Below are positions 1 through 24,177 of a stretch of DNA of 24,252 bases, piece after piece (positions within the stretch are counted from its first letter, which is position 1; every line of letters begins with the position of its first letter). Below the pieces are notes generated by a model that was not told the DNA's origin, made no database searches, and saw only the letters and a program-made list of their open reading frames with translations. The position numbers and the translations under genes were made by a program. Source of the stretch: a virus; the IMG/VR virus record IMGVR_UViG_3300007533_000017, positions 1 through 24,252 of that record; one strand, given 5' to 3'.

Positions 1-546
1 AGTTTCTCGAACAACTACAGCGCCAGCCAAGCGGCGATCAACGAGTTCAAGATGTTCCTGAATCCCGAGCGCACCTCGTTCGGTCAGGACCTCTGCCAAC
101 CCGTCTACGTCGAGTGGCTGCTTGCCGAGACGCTGGCTCGTAAGATCGTTGCCCGCGGGCTGCTCGAGGCTCAGCGCGACCCCGCGCAATACGACCTGTT
201 CGCGGCCTGGACACTTTCGGATTGGTCCGGGCACATCAAGCCGGCGGTCGATGCGTCGAAGCTGGTGCGAGGTGAAAAGGAAAAGGTGGACGCAGGGTTC
301 ACGACGCGCGGTCGCTCGACCAGGGAACTGACAGGATTGAAATTCTCGAAGGTCGTCAAGCAGCTGCGGAAAGAAAACGAAGCGCTCGTCGAAGCGAATG
401 CGCCGCTGATGCAACTCGAGGCGATGAAGAAAGCGCCGCCTCCGGCAGACGAGCCCGACGAAACCGATCGCGAGGACGACGAGGACGAGGACAACGAGGA
501 CGCGTCTGCTCTTTCGAGCAGCAAGGTAGTCGCCCTGTTGTCCTGA
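1..546 (+). CDS. Phage portal protein, lambda family, C-terminal part (5' truncated)
   Basis: The reading frame is open from base 1, so the gene begins upstream of the window; 181 residues are visible. The portal forms the dodecameric ring at the capsid vertex through which DNA is pumped and to which the neck attaches. The visible part begins with an FSNNYSASQAAINEF segment, then an R-T-S-F-G-Q-D-L-C-Q-PVYVEWL segment. This matches the conserved 'YSSxRAAL...PVYxxWL' pattern of lambda gpB-type portals. A basic/coiled stretch follows, then a very acidic tail (DEPDETDREDDEDEDNED, about residues 147-164 of the visible part), which is common at portal C-termini. The next gene, a head protease, begins 11 bases after the stop behind a GAAGGA ribosome site, the usual lambda-like order. 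The family call rests on motif recognition and gene order. The missing N-terminus cannot be assessed. Confidence 0.85.
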   Translation, partial: SFSNNYSASQAAINEFKMFLNPERTSFGQDLCQPVYVEWLLAETLARKIVARGLLEAQRDPAQYDLFAAWTLSDWSGHIKPAVDASKLVRGEKEKVDAGFTTRGRSTRELTGLKFSKVVKQLRKENEALVEANAPLMQLEAMKKAPPPADEPDETDREDDEDEDNEDASALSSSKVVALLS

Positions 547-4104: not shown

Positions 4105-4808
4105 CGGTGCTCGCGGCACTGGCGGCGATACCGGGGCGCGCGGACATTCTGCCCGCCGTCCTGGAGTCGTTGCGCTCGCAGGTAGACCGACTCTGCGTCT
4201 ACCTGAACGGGTGGGACAGCGTTCCGGAATGCGTCCGAGATCTGGCGGACGAGCATGTCTTGTCCGCCGAGAACGAAGGCGCAGAACGGAAACTCTGGTG
4301 GGCGCCGGAGCACGAGGGCATCTACCTCTCGTGTGACGACGACTTCTGCTATCCGCCTGACTACGCCGCGACCATGAGCGCCGCGGTGGGCCGGTTCGGC
4401 GGACAGGCGATCGTTACTGCGCACGGGCGGCAGTACCGAGAGCGAGCCAGCACCGTCCATGACGTGGTGCCGGGCTCGGTCGGGATGTACTACCGGAACG
4501 TGCGCGAGCGGTGGGTCAACTACGGCGGCACCGGCGTCATGGCGTGGGATGCGGGCAAGGTCCGGGTGCCACGCTATTGGCAGCACCGGAACATGCTGGA
4601 CGCGCAGCTCTCGGCGTGGGCGAACCGCAGCCAGATCCCGATGTGGCTCATTCGCCACGAAGGGCACTGGCTCGAGACCTATCGCCCGCTAGACCCGCAG
4701 GGGATCTTTCGGTCCTCGCAGCGAGAGCAACACCGGCGACGCAGCGCCATCATCGCAGAGCACGGACGGACACACGGATGGCGCTTGTACCGCGCGGCAG
4801 AACAGTAG
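4101..4808 (+). CDS. GT-A (family 2-like) glycosyltransferase
   Basis: A 235-residue predicted cytoplasmic glycosyltransferase, first gene of the modification cassette. The start is taken as GTG 4101, overlapping the gpFI-like stop (GTGA). The product then opens VTVLAALAAIPGRADILP, matching the N-terminal beta-strand and 'A-I-P-x-R' of small GT-A enzymes. LCVYLNGWD (31-39) is the second strand. IYLSCDDDFCYPPDY (74-88) contains the DDD (79-81) expected to bind the metal and sugar nucleotide. A later YGGTGVMAWD segment resembles the acceptor-side 'GG.G.l..r' region. No membrane segment is visible, so the acceptor is probably soluble, such as a protein or nucleotide-linked sugar. Donor and acceptor cannot be told from sequence. 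Confidence 0.8.
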   Translation: MTVLAALAAIPGRADILPAVLESLRSQVDRLCVYLNGWDSVPECVRDLADEHVLSAENEGAERKLWWAPEHEGIYLSCDDDFCYPPDYAATMSAAVGRFGGQAIVTAHGRQYRERASTVHDVVPGSVGMYYRNVRERWVNYGGTGVMAWDAGKVRVPRYWQHRNMLDAQLSAWANRSQIPMWLIRHEGHWLETYRPLDPQGIFRSSQREQHRRRSAIIAEHGRTHGWRLYRAAEQ

Positions 4809-6091
4809 CCAGCAAGCCCGCCGAGCTGATGCGATGGGACGTCCTGAACGAGATTCTCGACGTCACGGAGCAGCGGCGCTTTCTGGAGATCGGCGTCCAG
4901 GCCGGCGCGTGCGGCGCCCGGGTGAGCGCGTCTCCCAAGTGGGGCGTTGACCCATGCCCGAAAGGCAGCGCCGGCAACCGCTACCGCAAGCTGTTTCGCG
5001 GCACGTCGGATGCGTTCTTCGAATCACTCGACCCGGCTCAGCGCTTTGACGCCGTGCTGGTCGACGGTCTGCACCATGCCGACCAGGTGCTGCGTGACGT
5101 CGAAAACGCACTCCGGCACCTGGCTCCCGGCGGGTTCATCGTCCTGCACGACTGCAACCCGCAGTCCGAGATCGCTCAGCGTGTCCCGCGCGAAACAGGC
5201 GTCTGGAACGGCGACTGCTGGAAGGCCATGGTCCGGCTACGACAGCGCCCGGACCTCGACGCGTTCACGGTCGACTCGGATCACGGCATCGGGGTCGTGC
5301 GACCGGCACGCAACCCGGAGCCGCTGACCGATGTCCCGTCAGATCTGCATTACCGCCACCTCGAGCAGAACCGTGAGCGACTTGTCGGGCTGGTCCCGGC
5401 TAGGCGCTGGCGCGAGCGTGTCGGACCGCCACTCTGTATGGGCCGCGTCGTCGTCATGTCGGCGATCTTTGGCGGCAGGGACGCGCCGATCGCTGCCCCG
5501 AGAAACGACGCCGAACAATACGTGATGTTCACCGACGGCGACGGATCCGCTGGCTGGGAAGTCCGGGAAGTCCAGCCCGCCGAGCACCCGAGAGCGGAGG
5601 CGCGCCGGCACAAGACACTGGCGCTCGACATGGTCGACGGCGATGTCGTGGTCTGGGTCGACGGGCGCATAGAGGTCACGAAACGACCGCTGCTGCCGCT
5701 TTTGCGCCGCGCTCTGAACGGTGCCGACATCGCAGCGTTTCCGCATCCATGGCGCGATTGTGTGTACGAAGAAGCCCGCGAATGCGGCGACCTCGGCAGG
5801 GCAGACTCCGCGGCACTCGAGCGACAGATCCAAGACTACCGCGACGCCGGACTACCCGAACACGCCGGGCTCTGGAACACGATGGTCGTGGCTCGCCGCA
5901 GAACCGACCAGATGATTCAGCTTGGTCGCGATTGGTGGGCTGAGTTGAACCGGCACACACTACGCGATCAGGTCAGTCTCCCGTACCTGCTTTGGCGGGA
6001 CGGCATCCGCTGCGGCAAACTCGGCGACGACGTCTATCGAGACGGATCCAGTCAACACTTCATCCGCGGCAAGCACGCGCAGGCAGCGTGA
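4778..6091 (+). CDS. Fusion: SAM methyltransferase + DUF616 (TOD1/MUCI70-type) glycosyltransferase-like domain
   Basis: A 437-residue two-domain enzyme. ATG 4778 overlaps the previous gene by 31 bases; ATG 4829 is an alternative start that loses 17 residues. Residues 19-180 are a class I methyltransferase: RFLEIGVQAG (34-43, SAM-binding loop), FDAVLVDGLHHADQVLRDV (90-108), and APGGFIVLHDCNP (116-128). Residues 223-420 match the DUF616/TOD1-MUCI70 domain seen in sugar-modifying proteins. These include VVVMSAIFGGRD (224-235), QYVMFTD (247-253), RRHKTLAL (276-283), the acidic DVVVWVDGRIEV (289-300) and WWAELNRHTLRDQVSLPYLL (386-405). Together it could methylate and glycosylate the same glycan. 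The gene ends in a GTGA overlap with the next. A separate downstream gene (7023-7667) carries the same second domain alone. Confidence 0.75.
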   Translation: MALVPRGRTVASKPAELMRWDVLNEILDVTEQRRFLEIGVQAGACGARVSASPKWGVDPCPKGSAGNRYRKLFRGTSDAFFESLDPAQRFDAVLVDGLHHADQVLRDVENALRHLAPGGFIVLHDCNPQSEIAQRVPRETGVWNGDCWKAMVRLRQRPDLDAFTVDSDHGIGVVRPARNPEPLTDVPSDLHYRHLEQNRERLVGLVPARRWRERVGPPLCMGRVVVMSAIFGGRDAPIAAPRNDAEQYVMFTDGDGSAGWEVREVQPAEHPRAEARRHKTLALDMVDGDVVVWVDGRIEVTKRPLLPLLRRALNGADIAAFPHPWRDCVYEEARECGDLGRADSAALERQIQDYRDAGLPEHAGLWNTMVVARRRTDQMIQLGRDWWAELNRHTLRDQVSLPYLLWRDGIRCGKLGDDVYRDGSSQHFIRGKHAQAA

Positions 6092-7029
6092 AAGACCTTT
6101 TTCTCCAGAGCCTCCGGGAGCAAACGCAGCCCATCCGCGGCGCATCGGTGCTGCTCTGGGGATTCTCGGGCGCTGGCTTTCCGGGCGGCGACGGAGCCCG
6201 CGAGGCGGAACGCGCGCTGTCCGAGGTCGGCGTCGATACCGTCTACTCGCACAGGCTCGACCCGAAATCGCGCGAAGCCCTCTCCCGCAGTTACGACGTC
6301 GTCATTGTCACCAACACCCGGATCGGCGAGCTGGTCCGCCACGATGCCGCGGTCTGGGAACGCGCGCCGAAACGCGCACTCTGGTTTTGGGACCTCCGCC
6401 CCGGCAAAGTCGCGGCCCCGCTACGAGGCGCGCCGACCCACGTTTTCCTCAGCTACCGCGGCGAGTGGACGTCACCGCAAGGCGAGCGATACCACCCCGA
6501 CCAATGGCGCGACTCACTCGGCGTTCCGGTCGGATACTGCCCGCAGGGGTCGCCGATGCGGGAGCCGGCGCCAAAGCCCGGCGGGCATCAAGTGCTGTTC
6601 ATCGGCGACCTGAACAACGCCGTGTACCACCGCGGCCGTTCCCAGATCGCCCGAGCACTGGGCGCAAAGGTCATCAATTCCCGCACCCGCGACGGTCGAC
6701 TCAACGTCGAGTCCCGGATGCCCGAGTTGTACGCGAGCGCCCGATTCTCGCTTAGCATGTCGCCGCTGGCACCCGGCTACACCTCGGTCCGAACCTACTC
6801 GATCCTGGCGTGCGGCGGCTGCTTGCTGCTGCACCGGTTCCCAGGCGCCGATGAGATTTTCACCGATGGCGAGAACGCCATCCTGTTCGACTCGACCGAC
6901 GAAGCGAGCGCCAAGATGCGCGAAGCCGACCGCGACCGCATCGCCGAAAACGGGCGAAAGCTGCACGCGACCCGCCACACCGTGGCCCACCGAGTCGCCG
7001 ATATCTGCCGCCGAGTCCTCTGTTGCTGA
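6088..7029 (+). CDS. CgeB-like GT-B glycosyltransferase
   Basis: A 313-residue protein with the two-lobed layout of GT-B enzymes of the CgeB/glycosyltransferase-group-1 type. GTG 6088 overlaps the previous stop (GTGA) and is the natural start. The N-terminal lobe includes SVLLWGFSGAGFPGGDG (20-36) and SYDVVIVTNTRIGELV (68-83). The C-terminal nucleotide-sugar lobe begins with QVLFIGDLNN (168-177). It carries RMPELYASARFSLSMSPL (210-227), SVRTYSILACGGCLLL (233-248), then ADEIFTDGENAILFD (254-268). That last pattern of 'R.ye..acG..ll' followed by 'G.n.i.y' is the diagnostic CgeB signature. No membrane anchor is seen. It ends seven bases inside the next gene. Donor and acceptor are unknown. Confidence 0.78.
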   Translation: MKDLFLQSLREQTQPIRGASVLLWGFSGAGFPGGDGAREAERALSEVGVDTVYSHRLDPKSREALSRSYDVVIVTNTRIGELVRHDAAVWERAPKRALWFWDLRPGKVAAPLRGAPTHVFLSYRGEWTSPQGERYHPDQWRDSLGVPVGYCPQGSPMREPAPKPGGHQVLFIGDLNNAVYHRGRSQIARALGAKVINSRTRDGRLNVESRMPELYASARFSLSMSPLAPGYTSVRTYSILACGGCLLLHRFPGADEIFTDGENAILFDSTDEASAKMREADRDRIAENGRKLHATRHTVAHRVADICRRVLCC

Positions 7030-7667
7030 CCGTAGTCACTGCCATCTTCGGCAAAGGGTTTCGGTTGCACGATCCGGTCGAGCATTGGAGCGGCTGCCGG
7101 TTCGTGTGCTTCACGGACCGCAATGACCTGAAGTCATCCGTCTGGAAATTCAAGCGCCAGTCGCACAAGTTGACACCGCGGCGCGCGAATCGCCACGTCA
7201 AGACGCTGCTGCACCGATACGTCGACGGGCCGACGCTCTACAGCGACTCCGAGTTCAGGTTGGTCAAGGATCCGCAGCCGATCGTCGCTGCCGCCCTCGA
7301 GCGCGCACCCATCGCAGCAACCAAACACCCGCGCCGAGCGTGTCTGTTCGACGAGGCAGATTTCTGCCTGCTGAAAAAGCGTGTCGAATCGCCTCGGATG
7401 CTACGAGAGCAGGCTGACCGATACGCCGCCGAGGGAATGCCGCGCGGATTCGGACTGACCGCAAACAACATCCTGGCACGCCGCGGCGACGAAGATAGCG
7501 AGCGCATCGGAGAGCTTTGGTGGTCGGAACTGGATACCGGTTCCGAACGCGACCAAGTAAGCCTTCCGTACGTGCTCTGGAAGACCGGCATCAAGCCATC
7601 GATAATCCAGGGCGCTTACAATCACCTCGACTGGATCGAGCGCAAGAAGAGCCGGCGGCAGTACTGA
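7023..7667 (+). CDS. Stand-alone DUF616 (TOD1/MUCI70-type) glycosyltransferase-like protein
   Basis: A 214-residue protein with the same domain as the C-terminal half of the methyltransferase fusion. The only upstream start not leading out of frame is TTG 7023, overlapping the previous gene by seven bases. Shared landmarks are VVTAIFGKGF (4-13), CRFVCFTDRND (25-35), RRANRHVKTLL (53-63), an acidic strand LYSDSEFRL (72-80) in place of VVWVDGRIEV, and WWSELDTGSERDQVSLPYVL (166-185). The overall order and spacing match the fusion domain, so the two are paralogues, although divergence is high outside the landmarks. The domain is annotated in plant and bacterial sugar-related proteins, but its reaction is poorly defined. 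It is likely cytoplasmic. The stop shares one base with the next ATG (TGATG). Confidence 0.68.
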   Translation: MLTVVTAIFGKGFRLHDPVEHWSGCRFVCFTDRNDLKSSVWKFKRQSHKLTPRRANRHVKTLLHRYVDGPTLYSDSEFRLVKDPQPIVAAALERAPIAATKHPRRACLFDEADFCLLKKRVESPRMLREQADRYAAEGMPRGFGLTANNILARRGDEDSERIGELWWSELDTGSERDQVSLPYVLWKTGIKPSIIQGAYNHLDWIERKKSRRQY

Positions 7668-8194
7668 TGGAATTCGACAAGTACCGCAGGCTCGGCGCCT
7701 ATCACTGGCGCGAGTATGAACGGCAGAGCATCTATCGCGCATACGTCGACGAGCTGCTCCCGTGGATCGAGGGCGACCGCGTACTCGACGTCGGCGCAGG
7801 CGATGGCCTGATATGCCACAAGCTCGGCGCTGTCGGTGTCGAGCTGGACCCGCTTGCGGTCGAGTTGGCGAACAAGCGCGGAGCCAACGTATTCAGCGGC
7901 GACGCCGGAGCGCTACCGTTCGATCCGGAGTCGTTCGACGCTGTCCTGATGGGCGACGTAATCGAGCACCTCGAGGATCCGGCGCCCGCGCTGCGAGACG
8001 CTTACCTAGTGCTCGTCACCAACGGTCGGCTGTACGTCACCACGCCACCAAAGCGCACGCCGATCCGCAAATACCACTACCGAGAGTACACGTCAGTCAC
8101 GTTGCTGGACCAGGTCGAGCCTTTCGGGTTCTCTGCCGCCGGCACGCCGTTTACTCGACACGAACGGATCCACGCGGTGTTCCGGAAACGCTGA
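7667..8194 (+). CDS. Class I SAM-dependent methyltransferase
   Basis: A 175-residue methyltransferase of the Methyltransf_11/UbiE-like type, compact for the family. ATG 7667 shares one base with the preceding stop; a longer frame upstream lies entirely inside the previous gene. VLDVGAGDGL (39-48) is the SAM-binding motif I, GVELDP (57-62) the acidic loop after strand 2, and FDAVLMGDVIEHLEDP (90-105) the motif IV region. GRLYVTTPPKR (120-130) is the motif VI-like strand. The C-terminal REYTSVTLLDQVEPFGF resembles sugar/lipid O-methyltransferases that act on glycan chain ends. Placement among glycosyltransferases suggests a carbohydrate acceptor, but this is inference. Confidence 0.85.
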   Translation: MEFDKYRRLGAYHWREYERQSIYRAYVDELLPWIEGDRVLDVGAGDGLICHKLGAVGVELDPLAVELANKRGANVFSGDAGALPFDPESFDAVLMGDVIEHLEDPAPALRDAYLVLVTNGRLYVTTPPKRTPIRKYHYREYTSVTLLDQVEPFGFSAAGTPFTRHERIHAVFRKR

Positions 8195-8802
8195 TGGCAC
8201 TGGTCATCCCGGGGCGGCTGGTATTCATCCACGTCCCGAAGACAGCTGGAACGTGGGTCAAGCAGGTTCTGAGGCCGCAAATCGGCGGCGTCATCTACAC
8301 CAGAACCAACCACGGCAACCCGTGGGCAAAGGCCGGGCACCCGGACCTCGAGGATCTCCGGGACATCGATGGCTTCCGGATGGCATTCGTTCGCCACCCG
8401 GTCGACTGGTGGCTGTCGTTCTTTCGGCACCGCATGCGTCGCGGTAGCTGGAACCTGGAGCTCGAGCTTGACCGGTCGATCATGACCAAGTCGATCGACC
8501 GGTACATCGAGAACATCCTCAAGAATCAGCGCGGTTTCGCGAGCCGGATGTTTGCCGAATTCGTTGGCGAGCCAGGATCCGAAATCGACTTCATCGGCAA
8601 GCAAGAGAACTTCGGCGCCGACCTCAGGCGCGGTCTCTCACTCGCCGGATTCGACGTCAACGCGCTAGACCTGAGCGCCGGTCGCAAGAACTCGGGCGGA
8701 AAGAAAACCGCTCACTACCGATTCTCCGCTGACCAGCAACGACGACTCAGCGAAGCCGAGCAGCAGGGAATCGAGCGTTTCGGCTACGAGCCGTGGCACT
8801 GA
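8194..8802 (+). CDS. PAPS-dependent sulfotransferase family protein
   Basis: A 202-residue protein with both landmarks of the sulfotransferase fold. The 5'-phosphosulfate-binding loop is VFIHVPKTAGTWV (10-22), and the 3'-phosphate-binding element is MAFVRHPVDWWLSFFRHR (63-80), including the Arg-His-Pro characteristic of carbohydrate sulfotransferases. It would move sulfate from PAPS to a hydroxyl or amino group, here probably on a sugar. Length is close to the small bacterial/viral members. The ATG overlaps the methyltransferase stop by one base, and the gene runs ten bases into the next. No signal peptide or membrane helix is visible, so the reaction is expected in the cytoplasm where PAPS is available. 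Confidence 0.85.
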   Translation: MALVIPGRLVFIHVPKTAGTWVKQVLRPQIGGVIYTRTNHGNPWAKAGHPDLEDLRDIDGFRMAFVRHPVDWWLSFFRHRMRRGSWNLELELDRSIMTKSIDRYIENILKNQRGFASRMFAEFVGEPGSEIDFIGKQENFGADLRRGLSLAGFDVNALDLSAGRKNSGGKKTAHYRFSADQQRRLSEAEQQGIERFGYEPWH

Positions 8803-9338
8803 TAACCGCAATCGCCTACGACCCGGAACGAAACCTAGGGCGGGCGTACAACGAGATCATGGGCACGGTGTGCCCGGGTGACTGGGTTTGCTTCCTAGAT
8901 CATGACGCGATGTTCACGACTCGCGACTGGTACCGGCAGATCCTGAAAGCTATCGCCGAAAACCCGAAAGCCGGGCTGCTGACCGCGGTCACGAACAGGA
9001 TCGGAAACAAGGAACAGATCGCGCCCGGCTGCCCGCGCTCGCACGACATGCGGGAGCACTTCCGGTTTGGCGCAGCTCTGCGAGACCAGCACGGCGCTGC
9101 AGTTCGAGACATCACGAACAAGCATCTCGTGAGCGGCATCGTGATGTGTCTATCCCATGAGACGTGGGAGCAGATGGGCGGATTCGCTGATGGATTCTTC
9201 GGCGTCGACAACGACGCTCACCGCGCGGTCCGCAAAACAGGCAAGCGCGTCTACCTGATGCCAGGTCTCTACGCATATCACTGGTATCGCGGCGACGGCG
9301 TCGGTCACCAGAAAGCACCCAAGGCTAAGCGCCGATGA
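8793..9338 (+). CDS. GT-A (family 2-like) glycosyltransferase, last cassette gene
   Basis: A 181-residue protein starting at GTG 8793 inside the sulfotransferase gene and ending in ATGA with the first neck gene. It begins ALITAIAYDPERNLGRAYNE (2-21), the 'N-x-G-x-A-x-N' element of GT-A enzymes. It has GDWVCFLDHDAMFTTRDWY (29-47), whose D-H-D is the likely metal/nucleotide-sugar site. It then has KHLVSGIVMCLSHETWEQMG, FADGFFGVDNDAHRAVRKTG and a closing YHWYRGDG. This is the small bacteriophage/capsule-type glycosyltransferase pattern, with an N-terminus shortened relative to typical 230-300-residue enzymes. No membrane segment is seen. The sugar and acceptor are unknown. Tight coupling to the neck gene suggests expression with virion genes. 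Confidence 0.78.
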   Translation: MALITAIAYDPERNLGRAYNEIMGTVCPGDWVCFLDHDAMFTTRDWYRQILKAIAENPKAGLLTAVTNRIGNKEQIAPGCPRSHDMREHFRFGAALRDQHGAAVRDITNKHLVSGIVMCLSHETWEQMGGFADGFFGVDNDAHRAVRKTGKRVYLMPGLYAYHWYRGDGVGHQKAPKAKRR

Positions 9339-18947: not shown

Positions 18948-19381
18948 CCGACGTACTGCTGCGCCACACCAGCGACGGCGGAGACATCGAGTACGTCAAC
19001 GGCAGGGCCACCCTGTCGGAGGGTCTCGAGACCGCGGTCTATCTGTCGCTGTTCGGCGGCAACGAGTCAGACAGCGGGCTCGAGGGTGACGACCCGATCG
19101 AGTGGTGGGGCAACAAAACAGAGAACCTCGAGTCACGTAAACTGCGCAGCGAAACGCAACACCTGCTGCGGTCCATCCCGCTCGTTCCCGCGAACCTGCG
19201 ACGCATCGAGGACGCGGTCATCTCTGACCTCGGCTGGATGACCGGCACCGACGCGATCGCAACGTTCGTCGGCGCGTCGGCGAGCATCCCGAACCGGGAC
19301 ACCGTGCAGATCGATATACGGATCGAGATCGACAACGAGCAGTTTTCGTTCTCGTTCACTGAGCAGACGCGGCGGCAATGA
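18944..19381 (+). CDS. Baseplate wedge protein, Mu gp46-like (gp25/W family)
   Basis: A 145-residue protein, about the length of Mu gp46 (143). It begins at GTG 18944 inside the previous stop. Landmarks are TSDGGDIEYVNGRATLSEGL (9-28), LETAVYLSLFGGN (28-40), EWWGNKTENLESRKLRSETQ, and DLGWMTGTDAIATFVGASAS. All are typical of the gp46 family, which includes a conserved Trp-rich 'yWGn' element. It is a wedge protein that caps the sheath at the baseplate. The gene ends in an ATGA overlap with gp47-like, as expected for the gp46-gp47 pair. Confidence 0.9.
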   Translation: MTDVLLRHTSDGGDIEYVNGRATLSEGLETAVYLSLFGGNESDSGLEGDDPIEWWGNKTENLESRKLRSETQHLLRSIPLVPANLRRIEDAVISDLGWMTGTDAIATFVGASASIPNRDTVQIDIRIEIDNEQFSFSFTEQTRRQ

Positions 19382-20574
19382 GCCTCACGATCCCCACGAC
19401 ATCCCAGGTCTCGTCGGACATCGTCTCGCAGATCGAGGCGGAGATCTCGCAGACCGTCCCGCTGCTCCCGAAAGCTTTCACGCGCGTGCTCGCGAAGGCG
19501 CTGGCGGGCGTGCTGATGCTCCTGTTCAAATACTGCGGGTTCGTCTTCCTGCAGATGTTCGTTCAGCACGCCACGCTGGACGAGACGACGATCAACGGCA
19601 CAGTCGTCCGCCCGCTCGTCCTGCTCGGCGAGCTATTCGGCGTCGGGCAACCGCAAGCCGCGACGCGCGCTGAGCTAACGATCGAACTGACCGTCGACAA
19701 CCAAGACAGCAGCACCGTCAATGCTGGGCTGCAGCTGTTGCGCAAAGAAACCGGCGTCATCTACCTGACCCAAAGCGCGATCGTGCTCGATGCTGCGACC
19801 AAGTCGGTCGACGTCATCGCTTCGTCGGACCAAGACGGGAACGGCGGCGCGGGATCGATTGGCAATCTCGAGGTCGGAGACACGATCGAACTGGCGAACC
19901 CGATCGCCGGACTGGTGCGCGAGGCTGAGGTTACAGCCGAGGTCACGGCTGGGGCCGACGCAGAGACTGCCGCAGCGTACCGCCAGCGGATTATCGATCG
20001 CGTCCAGAAGAAGCCACAGGGCGGCGCATACGCCGACTACGAGCAGTGGGCGGAGGAGGTCGAAGGCATAATCAACGCCTACCCGTACACCGGAGATCCG
20101 GGCGAGGTAGACGTCTACTGCGAGGCTACCGAGGCGAGCTCCGGAAGCGCCGATGGATTCCCGACGTCGGCGCAGTTGGATGACGTGCTTGAGAGCATCG
20201 AGCAGAACGTTGCTGGAGTGGCGACGCGGCGACCCGTCAACGCTGCGGTGAATGTGCTTTCGATTACCAGGACTGAGATCGACTTTACGATCGACGGTCT
20301 TGACGGAGAGAATTCGGCGCAGATGCAGACCGACATCACGAGCGGCATCGAGGAGTTTCTGCTCTCCCGTGAACCGTTCATCGTTGGCCTGTCGGTACTG
20401 CCGCGAAAAGACCGAATCACAACCGCAGAGGTCAGCGGAATCGTGTCGAGCATCGTGCATGCTGCGGGAGGCGCGTTCGATACTGTGACGATGCTGATCA
20501 GCGGCACCGAGTTCAATTCGTACGAGCTAGGCGAAGGCGAGAAGGCGAAAGCCGGAACCGTGCAGTTCGTCTGA
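19378..20574 (+). CDS. Baseplate J-like protein, Mu gp47-like
   Basis: A 398-residue Baseplate_J-family protein, the main wedge protein that surrounds the spike and connects to the fibres. Family landmarks are a long N-terminal helix region (LKYCGFV-type hydrophobic segment near residues 40-60) and GQPQAATRAELTIELTVDNQ. Next comes an Ig-like strand block with GLQLLRKETGVIYLTQSAIV. The hallmark 'AETAAAYRQRIIDRVQKKPQGG' region (about 196-217) matches 'd.E.....R......p...G' of the family. VDVYCEAT and DDVLESIEQNVAGVATRRPV complete the core. Mu gp47 is about 380 residues. The 7-base gap to the fibre gene replaces the usual contact with a gp48 gene, which here lies further downstream. Confidence 0.93.
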   Translation: MSLTIPTTSQVSSDIVSQIEAEISQTVPLLPKAFTRVLAKALAGVLMLLFKYCGFVFLQMFVQHATLDETTINGTVVRPLVLLGELFGVGQPQAATRAELTIELTVDNQDSSTVNAGLQLLRKETGVIYLTQSAIVLDAATKSVDVIASSDQDGNGGAGSIGNLEVGDTIELANPIAGLVREAEVTAEVTAGADAETAAAYRQRIIDRVQKKPQGGAYADYEQWAEEVEGIINAYPYTGDPGEVDVYCEATEASSGSADGFPTSAQLDDVLESIEQNVAGVATRRPVNAAVNVLSITRTEIDFTIDGLDGENSAQMQTDITSGIEEFLLSREPFIVGLSVLPRKDRITTAEVSGIVSSIVHAAGGAFDTVTMLISGTEFNSYELGEGEKAKAGTVQFV

Positions 20575-20581
20575 GTAAGCC

Positions 20582-21589
20582 ATGGCGATCAAACCAAGCG
20601 ACAGATACCCCGGGCAAACCGACGCCGCCGCCGGCTGGCCGTACGGCAAAGCGAGGAATAAGCAAAACGTCACCGATACCACGGGCACGCCGCTCGAAAA
20701 GGACTGGGTGTCGGACTGGTTCGGATTCCAGCAGGCGATCCTCGACGAAGCCAACATCGACCCATCGGGCGACCCGGACAAGGTCGGAACCAGTGACCTC
20801 GTCGACGCTATCCACGCAATCAACCCGATCGAGATCGGCGGCACGGTCAGTCCGTCGAGCCAGCTGATCTTCAACGGCGATCTGCACCTGGCGTCCGGCA
20901 CGTTCGAGTCCGATGCCGACGCGACGTTCCGTGGATCGTTCGACGTCGAGGGCGCGGCGACGCTCACCGGTCAAATCACCGCATCCGGAGCGGACCTCAC
21001 CGGAGCACCGACGTCAGTCGACGACCTGAGCGTAGACGGCACGCTGTCCGTCACGTCGCTGGCTAGCTTTGCCGATGACGTCTCGATGGACGCTGACCTC
21101 GACGTTACCGGCGCCGCGGGTCTCGGCTCCGCAATCGTGCAGAATGACCTCGACGTGGTCGGTAATCTCAGTGTCGACGGCACGACCCTCCTGTCGGATA
21201 CGGTGACTTTTTCGGTGCCGTTTGCGGCGAGTGGTGGGATTCTGGGCGGTGGCCCGTATGTGCTGCTGGGTGCCGGGCACGTTCGATATCGCGTCGTCAC
21301 CCTTCCTGACGATCAGGACACGTCGGTGGGTCCCGATGATGGCGATATCTTCTACGTCCCGATCGGCAATACGCCGACGACGGATCGAACGATCACGCTC
21401 AAGAACGCGAGCGAGGGCGAACGCCTGGATTTCGTCTACGAGGGCTCGGCGAACGGGTACGTCTTCGAGGACGCGGCGGGCAACCAAATCCTCCACAACG
21501 GCAGCCAGGTCCGCATGTCATCGACCGCCGAGCGGATGGCATTCATCTACGTAGATGGCACATGGCGGCTGCACACGAGTCTGGCATGA
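20582..21589 (+). CDS. Tail fibre protein with repetitive beta-shaft
   Basis: A 335-residue fibre-like protein seven bases after the gp47-like gene. Residues 1-80 contain the baseplate-attachment type segment: SDRYPGQTDAAAGWPYGKAR, NKQNVTDTTGTPLEKDWVSD, WFGFQQAILDEANIDPSGDP. This combination is common at the N-terminus of phage fibres. Residues about 110-215 are a repetitive, glycine-punctuated shaft built of short units such as DLSVDGTLSVTSLASF, DLDVTGAAGLGSA and DLDVVGNLSVDGTTLL, suggesting a triple beta-helix. The C-terminal third has GPYVLLGAGHVRYRVVTLPD, GDIFYVPIGN and a short end FIYVDGTWRLHTSLA, which may form a cap. It probably forms trimers. No chaperone gene follows on the + strand. 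After the stop only 26 bases separate it from the convergent lipoprotein gene, with no obvious terminator. Confidence 0.75.
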   Translation: MAIKPSDRYPGQTDAAAGWPYGKARNKQNVTDTTGTPLEKDWVSDWFGFQQAILDEANIDPSGDPDKVGTSDLVDAIHAINPIEIGGTVSPSSQLIFNGDLHLASGTFESDADATFRGSFDVEGAATLTGQITASGADLTGAPTSVDDLSVDGTLSVTSLASFADDVSMDADLDVTGAAGLGSAIVQNDLDVVGNLSVDGTTLLSDTVTFSVPFAASGGILGGGPYVLLGAGHVRYRVVTLPDDQDTSVGPDDGDIFYVPIGNTPTTDRTITLKNASEGERLDFVYEGSANGYVFEDAAGNQILHNGSQVRMSSTAERMAFIYVDGTWRLHTSLA

Positions 21590-21615: not shown

Positions 21616-22398
21616 CTATAACGGACACGGGCCGCACTCTGCTTGTATCGGTCCTGAGTCGTCTCCAGTTGAAACACAGAATCTGTCCACAGCTCCAGGC
21701 GCGTCACCGCCACACCAAACCGCTCCGCCTTCCCACTCTAGCTTATCGCCGTCGCACGCACTGGACGCCCCGGAGCAGTACTCGAGCAATACTGTCTGCT
21801 CGATCTTTTCTGCGTAATAGATCTCACCATCTTTCACGCACGATGGACCGTCGTCCCATTGAGTGTATTGTTTTCCGTCGCATCGACTCGCGATGACCGT
21901 GTAACCCGGATCTTGCGTTCCGTCCTGGCACATGGCGCCTTTGATCAGGAAGTTGCACCCGTCGCAGCACGGACCATCCGAGCATTCGCACCCATTACTC
22001 GGCGCTGAATCAGTTCCGGAATCGACCGCGCGGCCACTATCTGCATGGGCTGAGTCGGCAGTTTCCGCGCCGTCGTTTGCTGCGTCTTGGTGTTCTCTTT
22101 TTGCGTCATGGCTCACGTCGACACGAGCGTCTGCTGAGTTCGAGCCGGAGTCTGGACTGCCATGCGCGTCTCGCGAATCAGATGCATCATACCCGCCGGC
22201 GCCCATGCCGGCGTCGTCTCCAGGGGCTGCCGCTCCGTCAGTGGTGACGCGCACGTCGCTTCGATGCCCAGCATCTGTGGACTGGACCGGAGAACGAGAC
22301 GCGGCGTCAGTCCCGGCGTCTCCCAGCACTACGGACACATCCCCGGATCCATCGCCGCATCCCGCGACAGCAAACACCAAAAAAGCCAACCGTCTCAT
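21616..22398 (-). CDS. Secreted Cys-rich lipoprotein (moron gene)
   Basis: A 260-residue minus-strand protein in the middle of the tail region. The N-terminus MRRLAFLVFAVAGC has a short basic start, a hydrophobic core and a lipobox VAG-Cys14. Gly follows the Cys, consistent with outer-membrane sorting. Residues 15-134 are a low-complexity, Asp/Ala/Ser/Gly-rich linker with DAG/DAS repeats, a style common in myxobacterial lipoproteins. Residues 135-260 hold 14 cysteines. The block CECSDGPCCDGCNFLIKGAM (137-156) resembles a disintegrin-like 'C-x-C..GpCC..C' cluster seen in myxobacterial secreted proteins. Codon use and direction differ from phage neighbours. ATG 22398 overlaps the upstream regulator's stop (ATGA), with AGAGGG nearby. 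A lysogenic-conversion or exclusion role at the host surface is inferred. Confidence 0.75.
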   Translation of the reverse strand: MRRLAFLVFAVAGCGDGSGDVSVVLGDAGTDAASRSPVQSTDAGHRSDVRVTTDGAAAPGDDAGMGAGGYDASDSRDAHGSPDSGSNSADARVDVSHDAKREHQDAANDGAETADSAHADSGRAVDSGTDSAPSNGCECSDGPCCDGCNFLIKGAMCQDGTQDPGYTVIASRCDGKQYTQWDDGPSCVKDGEIYYAEKIEQTVLLEYCSGASSACDGDKLEWEGGAVWCGGDAPGAVDRFCVSTGDDSGPIQAECGPCPL

Positions 22399-22577
22399 CT
22401 CGCCCTCTTTTTCCGTCTAGGTGTGTCGGCGGGAAACAGCTCCCGATACTTCTCCCGCATCACGAACCGGACGGCGTCACTAATCGACGCCAACCCGAGC
22501 GACCTCGCGACGTCTTCAAACACGCGCCTGTCGTCTTCGCTGATCCGCAGCAGGAACCGGGATTGCTTCTCGCCCAT
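22395..22577 (-). CDS. Ribbon-helix-helix-like regulator
   Basis: A 60-residue basic protein. The frame extends to an ATG at 22637, but ATG 22577 is preferred because a good promoter would place the transcript start near it and the first 20 residues of the longer version lack structure. The pattern is SRFLLRISEDD (strand), RRVFEDVARSLGLAS (helix A), ISDAVRFVMREKYREL (helix B), then the basic tail RRKKRAR. This fits the beta-alpha-alpha layout of RHH/CopG-type DNA-binding proteins that act as dimers. Its stop is ATGA-coupled to the lipoprotein start. A perfect palindrome (22586-22595) sits over the candidate -10, so self-repression is likely. A toxin-antitoxin partner is not seen. Confidence 0.65.
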   Translation of the reverse strand: MGEKQSRFLLRISEDDRRVFEDVARSLGLASISDAVRFVMREKYRELFPADTPRRKKRAR

Positions 22578-22583
22578 GATCCG

Positions 22584-22611
22584 ATTGTACGTACACCGGG
22601 CAAAGTGTCTA
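22584..22611 (-). promoter_or_regulatory. Candidate sigma-70 promoter for the moron genes
   Basis: Read on the minus strand, TAGACA (22606-22611) and TACAAT (22584-22589) each match five of six consensus bases and are 16 bases apart. The expected transcript start, about seven bases downstream, falls at or next to the ATG of the regulator at 22577, suggesting a leaderless message. This is the only good sigma-70-like promoter I see in the window. Confidence 0.55.
22586..22595. promoter_or_regulatory. 10-bp perfect palindrome overlapping the -10 element (operator candidate)
   Basis: TGTACGTACA reads the same on both strands and overlaps the -10 hexamer of the moron promoter. A second inverted pair, CCGGG/CCCGG, flanks the -35 region (about 22596-22616). 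The position is right for a repressor such as the small RHH-like protein encoded immediately downstream. Confidence 0.5.
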
Positions 22612-22671
22612 CCCGGCGCCCCGTCGATTGTCCGCAAGTGCCCGGAATTGCCGCAGCCTTAGCGCAGCCAC

Positions 22672-24177
22672 ATGCCGTTTTTCCGCATATTCCAGCACCT
22701 GTTGCCGCGTGCTCGCGCGTGGAATCTGGTCGCAGAAAAGAAGCTCAGGCAGCTCTTCGTCGGTCTCTCGAAAAAGCCCGAGGAGATCCGCGAGTTCGCG
22801 GACCTCGTCTATTACGACCTGTTCCCGGACACGACGCGCGAGATCGCGGCGTGGGAAAAGCAGTTCGGGCTACCGACCGCGAGCACTGAGCAGCAACAGC
22901 GCGACAACGTATCGGCTCACTGGCAGTCGCAGGGCGGGCAAGATCGAGAGTACATCGAGGGTGTGCTAGCGGCTGCAGGGTTCGACGTCACGCTTCACGA
23001 GTGGTGGCACACGTCCGCCGGTGAGGTGCTCAGCTTCGACGGTGTCGATGGCTACGTTGAGGTTTCGCACGACGCCGACTTCGATGTCATCGAGTGGAAC
23101 ACGTCGTGGACCATATCCTGCTGGTTTCGACTCGAGCCGGTCAACTCAAGCGAGCAGACCATCATCGCCAAGGCGAGCGCTAGCGGTACGCAGCAGGGAT
23201 GGTGGGTCGAGGTTACGGCATCTGGGAATATCCAGGTAGCACTGGTCAACGACTGGGGCGGCGGCAATCGTGTGTTCGGAGCGTCTACGTCATTCGGGAA
23301 CCTGGACGACGATGACTGGCACCACCTCGTTGTCACCTACGACGGCAGCGGATCTCGCTTCGGTCTGACGTGCTGGGTAGACAACGTATCGTCCACGTTT
23401 TCCGGCAGCGGGGACACCATCAGCGCCACGATGGCGACGTCACGAGACGTCGAGATCGGGAGGCGCGACGACACAAACTACTGGCCCGGAACGTCGGGCG
23501 GCACACCGGTAGCCGGATACCTCGACGAGGTTGCGATCTGGTCCGGCGTCGAGATGAACGCATCGCAGGTCGCGGACCTGTACAACAGCGGAGGCGTCGT
23601 CGATTACACAACACTCGACACGGCGGACGACCTGGTCGCTTACTGGAGAATGGGCGAAGGCGCGTCGTTCCCCAACATTCCAGACGAGAGCGGAAACGGT
23701 CACTCCGGCACCATGACCGACATGTCTGCAACGGATCTCGTTGAGCGAGACACGCTGCAGCCCGGAACGGTACCACCGTACGTGGCCCGCGACCCAAACG
23801 ATTACGCCGAGTCCGCACTCATCGGAACAGAGCAGTGTTTCGAGGAGCCGAACAACGACGTTCAGTGCACCGACACCCTGGACGGTCCGCCGCGGTGCAA
23901 CGCATTCCCGGTAACCGAGGCTAGCTACCTGGTCAACAAGAGTCTTGGCGTGAACATACCGCCTCCTCTGCCTACCGACCCGGATCGGTTCCCGTATTTC
24001 ATCTACGTCGGAGACGAAACGTTTCCAGACAAAGTCACGATCCCGCGCAGCCGCAAGGACGAGTTCGAGCGACTGCTGCTCAAGCTGTGCCCGACGCAGC
24101 ACTGGATCGTTTTGCGCGTGAACTACGAGCTGGATTTCGGAATCTTCGACTCCACCTTTGACGACTCGTTTGAGTAG
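22672..24177 (+). CDS. Mu gp48-like (DUF2313) tail protein with inserted LamG/concanavalin-type lectin domain
   Basis: A 501-residue protein. ATG 22672 is the first start after an in-frame TAG at 22660; its ribosome site is weak. Residues 1-115 match the start of gp48/YmfQ (DUF2313): EEIREFADLVYYDLFPDTTR, EIAAWEKQFGLPTASTEQQQ and DREYIEGVLAAAGFDVTLHE. Residues 117-352 are a LamG-type jelly roll: SFDGVDGYVEVSHD, TSWTISCWFRLE, WHHLVVTYDGS, AGYLDEVAIWSG, then LVAYWRMGEG with DESGNGHSGTMTD. Residues 366-501 return to DUF2313, ending FPDKVTIPRSRKDEFERLLL then KLCPTQHWIVLRVNY, the usual family end. Ordinary gp48-like proteins are about 200 residues. The lectin insertion suggests direct sugar binding at the baseplate. 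It lies after the fibre and moron rather than directly after gp47-like. Confidence 0.85.
   Translation: MPFFRIFQHLLPRARAWNLVAEKKLRQLFVGLSKKPEEIREFADLVYYDLFPDTTREIAAWEKQFGLPTASTEQQQRDNVSAHWQSQGGQDREYIEGVLAAAGFDVTLHEWWHTSAGEVLSFDGVDGYVEVSHDADFDVIEWNTSWTISCWFRLEPVNSSEQTIIAKASASGTQQGWWVEVTASGNIQVALVNDWGGGNRVFGASTSFGNLDDDDWHHLVVTYDGSGSRFGLTCWVDNVSSTFSGSGDTISATMATSRDVEIGRRDDTNYWPGTSGGTPVAGYLDEVAIWSGVEMNASQVADLYNSGGVVDYTTLDTADDLVAYWRMGEGASFPNIPDESGNGHSGTMTDMSATDLVERDTLQPGTVPPYVARDPNDYAESALIGTEQCFEEPNNDVQCTDTLDGPPRCNAFPVTEASYLVNKSLGVNIPPPLPTDPDRFPYFIYVGDETFPDKVTIPRSRKDEFERLLLKLCPTQHWIVLRVNYELDFGIFDSTFDDSFE

Follow-up and report, generated by a model that had tools for sequence, protein, structure and literature searches.

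A LamG domain inserted before the presumed fibre-docking segment of a Mu gp48-type baseplate wedge protein

In phages with simple contractile tails, receptor recognition is usually credited to the tail fibres. How the fibre is held by a wedge protein has been described in Mu, where its N-terminus is anchored on gp48 residues 133-155, a "fiber docking loop" (PMC11915804); in phage XM1, the gp48 equivalent gp17 has flexible, unresolved parts and these take part in spike binding (PMC10457771). Two other systems carry added modules. Gp119 of phage Vp4 is a BW3 protein with two carbohydrate-binding module (CBM) folds, and a GFP-Gp119 fusion decorates sensitive host cells; Gp177, a homologue without the CBMs, gives no cell decoration (PMC11406892). 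Inserts in evolved Dit proteins restore adsorption to EPS-bearing hosts (PMC10688798). Because a BW3 wedge protein with a CBM has already been published, the principle of an add-on CBM is not new. The gp48-LamG architecture that we describe here, in a viral stretch of 24,252 nucleotides (the window), is real and unusual, but other phages are already known to carry comparable add-on binding modules. Within the limited set of literature searched, a LamG domain at the fibre-docking site of a Mu-type gp48 appears to be undescribed.

The gp48 backbone and the limits of the insert

The 501-aa open reading frame (Table 1) encodes a Mu gp48-type baseplate wedge protein of the PF10076/PHROG 4920 family, which our profile searches confirmed. 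PF10076 (Phage_Mu_Gp48) matched residues 8-110 with E 2e-9 in Pfam, and the score of 37.8 bits against a curated cut-off of 37.4 makes the family match significant; phmmer placed residues 2-110 on Mu gp48 5-118 (9ki1_a, E 4e-5). The PF10076 profile alone gave no match in the C-terminal half of the window protein, and PHROG 4920 (E 5e-39) matched both the N-terminal and the C-terminal stretches. Directly upstream lie gp44/P-like, GP46-like and Baseplate_J (gp47/J-like) genes, as assigned by Pfam and PHROG, and the gene that begins just downstream resembles the start of an 833-aa protein found behind gp48 in L149, the nearest relative. The initial annotation had reported a LamG domain within a gp48-like baseplate protein. 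Pfam indeed puts both families in this one frame, and the placement of the LamG on the baseplate agrees with the wedge family and with the gp44/gp46/gp47-type gene context. The sheath of the window virus is closest to those of gammaproteobacterial phages, and one clade member, L101, sits in a Myxococcota MAG.

Table 1. Features of the gp48 locus, with positions in the window.
Feature	Position	Strand	Basis
gp47/J baseplate wedge gene	19378..20574	+	Baseplate_J, E 4e-38
Tail fibre gene; its N-terminal anchor is shared by the clade	20582..21589	+	PHROG tail fibre
Gene for a BW3-type, gp48-like baseplate wedge protein (501 aa) with a LamG domain inside it	22672..24177	+	ORF, Pfam, PHROG
gp48 backbone, N-terminal part, residues 1-112, conserved HEWW at end	22672..23007	+	PF10076, phmmer, alignments
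Inserted segment, residues 113-367	23008..23772	+	single gap against L149 and other close relatives
LamG (Laminin_G_3) core, residues 123-300	23038..23571	+	Pfam
Jelly-roll closing strands, residues 321-348 (LVAYWRMGEG...DESGNGHSGTM)	23632..23715	+	AF2 insert model; shared motif
gp48 backbone, C-terminal part, residues 368-501	23773..24174	+	PHROG 4920, PF10076 match of L149, VIA-align
Presumed fibre-docking segment, residues 368-440, kept downstream of the LamG	23773..23991	+	place with respect to the docking loop of Mu gp48
Next gene, start only (MAEVTRSAAQTAADTITNE...), cut by contig end	24181..24252	+	translation

Two minus-strand genes sit as a pair between the fibre gene and gp48. One (21616-22398) is lipoprotein-like, with a lipobox VAGC, an Asp/Ala/Gly-rich linker and a Cys-rich end with CECSDGPCCDGC; the other (22395-22637) is small and ribbon-helix-helix-like. 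L149 has a related lipoprotein-like gene in this slot, and a weak match points to one in L145 and L146 as well. The pair could possibly be a moron, serving for example in superinfection exclusion.

We found 135 distinct relatives, of which 130 are complete, by scanning phages as well as viral and genome contigs. In L149, which shares with the window the gene order J, fibre, minus-strand lipoprotein-like gene and gp48, the gp48 protein has 247 aa and no insert; it aligns with the window protein at 53% identity with a single gap, 251 residues long, so that the insert stands in place of four L149 residues (ELPA). On L149 gp48, PF10076 covers residues 6-223 (profile 2-142 of 150), running through the junction. 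Because of this single gap and of the match through the junction, both halves of the window protein are taken as one family domain and the LamG as an insert. The N and C parts together align to the whole of the insert-free protein, which is how internal inserts of evolved adhesion-device proteins are recognized. In close relatives PPYVARDP follows directly after HEWW with nothing between. The architecture first proposed (gp48 at 1-115 and 366-501, LamG at 117-352) therefore stands, with its limits refined to an insert of residues 113-367. The accompanying figure of about 200 residues for ordinary members holds for the Mu and YmfQ types but not for the window's relatives, whose median length is 271 aa (n=130). 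In a PF10076 scan of 398 genomes of one phylum (G005), most open frames were near normal size; the longest frame inspected there, L129 (622 aa), owes its length to a GC-rich open frame running on upstream, and no domain is inserted in it.

Predicted folds and fibre docking

Laminin_G_3 was matched with E 6e-15 in the whole protein and 1.6e-15 in the insert alone (Pfam), at 56.1 bits against a curated cut-off of 27.6 and over profile positions 1-150 of 151. With the LamG as query, phmmer matched nothing in the PDB, and a DNA pattern for AYWRMGEG matched nothing in the viral contigs searched. When the insert was modelled by itself with AF2, from an alignment with 17 phage LamG relatives, a complete LG fold was predicted (pLDDT 80, pTM 0.86), with structural matches of Z 15-20 to LG modules (PAPP-A, neurexin/laminin) and pentraxins and of Z 20.3 to 4dqa, a putative carbohydrate-binding protein. 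The motif LVAYWRMGEG...DESGNGHSG (residues 321-346) also stands at the domain end in the phage LamG domains of L096, L208 and L212. In the insert model these closing strands lie inside the predicted fold with pLDDT of about 76-93, in agreement with the earlier view that DESGNGHSG closes the jelly roll.

LG folds can bind glycans, but also proteins and other ligands. The best structural matches of the model include PAPP-A, dimethylformamidase and neurexin domains, which cannot be presumed to bind glycans; it is from the predicted fold that we infer sugar binding by the window LamG.

In the AF2 model of the full-length protein, the backbone cores were confident and the LamG was poorly predicted, because the alignment was too shallow there. 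The top VIA-align row was Mu gp48 (9ki1_b), with aligned model residues between 88 and 484 placed onto the contiguous stretch 96..176; 58 residues superposed with an rmsd of 2.0 Å and a modest Z of 5.5, and the row is a true homologue that spans the insert. The structure prediction proposed in the initial annotation has thus brought both ends onto one Mu gp48 domain, which supports a backbone that would fold as in ordinary members with the LamG looped out.

Window residue 110 aligns with Mu gp48 residue 118 (phmmer), which places the insert after the wedge-core domain and ahead of the docking segment. From this position in the alignment we presume that the docking segment is retained and that the window gp48 docks its fibre. 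We located the fibre anchor in 120 relatives, upstream of gp48 in 19 and downstream in 101. The fibre gene between gp47 and gp48 is a clade-specific order, found in 19 relatives including L081, L091, L149 and L153.

Add-on modules in relatives and the glycan cassette

The profile search suggested for other insertions in gp48-like proteins turned up one more large insert at the same site: both flanking motifs could be located in 98 relatives, and a large segment separates them in only two, the window and L065. In L065 (3001-4692), a gp48 homologue, HEWW is followed at once by seven 44-aa repeats (SPDGINW...WSPEL); they look propeller-like by eye and give a weak DUF6242 match below the cut-off. 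Modules also occur at the C-terminus: L110 (3001-5259) is a 753-aa gp48 homologue with two LamG domains there, and in L135 a LamG-like sequence begins at the C-terminus and is cut by the contig end, with no Pfam match in that part. The window, L065, L110 and L135 are scattered on a quick tree of a small sample, and this distribution suggests that the modules were likely acquired repeatedly, as independent gains. A broader reading would make the gp48/BW3 pre-docking site a permissive slot that Mu-type phages repeatedly load with unrelated modules, so that recognition is re-tooled from the wedge, possibly together with a glycan-modifying cassette; we consider this an unlikely generalization at present. 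LamG domains are widespread among phage proteins of various kinds. In L096 (1-6642), a frame that is open across the whole 6.6-kb locus encodes LamG domains and is probably one giant adhesin-like protein; one of these domains is the closest LamG relative that we found for the window (32%).

The window also holds a methyltransferase, glycosyltransferase and sulfotransferase cassette at 4511-9335, flanked by the major capsid gene and the head-closure gene. Its glycosyltransferase (7023-7664) and sulfotransferase (7762-8799) have homologues in the L135 and L147 records, in which the cassette is found past the head-closure gene, unlike in the window; L147 has a plain gp48, and its sulfotransferase match is weak and holds stops. 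Cassette homologues were not detected in L110, with its two LamG domains, nor in the other clade records tested. The cassette is found in 2/2 LamG-bearing clade records (window, L135) versus 1/9 others, for which a one-sided hypergeometric calculation by hand, with kinship ignored, gives 3/55 = 0.055. A link between the LamG and the glycan cassette had been raised as a possibility; the homologues in the window and L135 speak for it, but those of L147 beside a plain gp48 and their lack in L110 do not, and the co-occurrence is suggestive at most of what would be a weak link.

Proposed role and comparison with known systems

Based on these findings, we propose that the LamG may serve as an auxiliary adsorption module beside the fibre, in the manner of the evolved Dit inserts and of the Vp4 Gp119 CBMs, a reading by analogy that we hold to be the most likely, with moderate confidence. 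In this gp48/BW3 protein of a simple contractile tail, a complete inserted LamG jelly roll follows the wedge-core domain and precedes the fibre-docking segment, and it would project from the edge of the baseplate next to the fibre anchor. Each virion would carry six copies if the Mu stoichiometry of one gp48 per wedge applies. The LamG would then bind a host surface polysaccharide or glycoconjugate, in a multivalent way and auxiliary to fibre-based recognition. Display on the virion, a glycan ligand and a role in adsorption are what we infer for a LamG insert known from a single metagenomic virus record. Given the precedent of Vp4 Gp119, it is reasonable to suppose, as the initial annotation did, that adsorption would not depend on fibres only.

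The position of the insert could also point to a structural role. Adjoining the fibre-docking segment, and with structural relatives that include LG domains in protein-protein complexes (neurexin, PAPP-A), the LamG might position or lock the fibre, through contact with it or with an adjacent wedge protein, without touching the host. However, about 130 relatives, including the sister L149, do without it; relatives that lack the insert have a fibre anchor of the window's type; and the module at this site in L065 is unrelated, which fits poorly with a conserved contact surface. We therefore regard a purely structural role as improbable. Less probable still is that the LamG holds the virion near its hosts by way of an environmental polysaccharide (EPS, mucilage or biofilm matrix) and does not act in receptor recognition. 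The presence of phage LamG domains in such varied proteins and the ability of LG folds to bind glycans would suit this idea, but it is hard to tell from the adsorption model, as the evolved Dit case shows that EPS binding can itself belong to adsorption.

An assembly chimera or a fortuitous passenger insert has also to be weighed, as the evidence comes from one linear record of 24 kb. Both junctions are in frame within one 501-codon frame, GC3 is alike in the N part (0.79), the insert (0.77) and the C part (0.76), and no direct repeat pairs the two junctions, so that we judge an assembly chimera unlikely. If the large insert that L065 independently carries at this site and the C-terminal LamG sequences of L110 and L135 are added, either form of accident appears very improbable.

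If the adsorption role is true, a binding module in the fibre-holding wedge protein would let the baseplate grip the cell in its own right, and such a wedge-borne module could affect host range and the contraction trigger. The evolved-Dit principle, so far known mainly from phages of Gram-positive hosts, would extend to Mu-type baseplates, and the insertion site before the docking segment would be a point that tolerates whole domains.

Among described proteins, Mu gp48 (BW3, PF10076 Phage_Mu_Gp48/DUF2313, 9ki1) shares with the window protein the backbone family, the predicted core fold, the place in the baseplate gene order and, by position, the fibre-docking role. It has 180 aa in the PDB chain and no added domain, whereas the window protein has about 250 residues added just before the docking segment. 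The PHROG 4920 proteins of the Shewanella phages SppYZU01 and SFCi1 belong to the same family and the same tail gene set; proteins of this type have 269-273 aa and no LamG, and their fibre gene lies downstream of gp48, whereas that of the window lies upstream. The evolved Dit of lactococcal skunaviruses resembles the window protein in having an internal insert, there a CBM, with N and C parts that align with the whole classical protein (PMC10688798), but Dit is a siphophage hub ring protein with BppA-like inserts and the window gp48 is a wedge protein with a LamG. Gp119 of the Bacillus phage Vp4 is, like the window gp48, a third wedge protein with carbohydrate-binding-type folds, which Deep-Blue Gp177 and A511 gp105 are without (PMC11406892). 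Gp119 has been shown to bind host cells, whereas the window LamG is known from its sequence and predicted fold. Vp4 belongs to the Herelleviridae, has a Gram-positive host and carries CBM16-like and Xyn10B CBM-like folds on another backbone, while the window virus has one LamG on a simple baseplate of Mu type.
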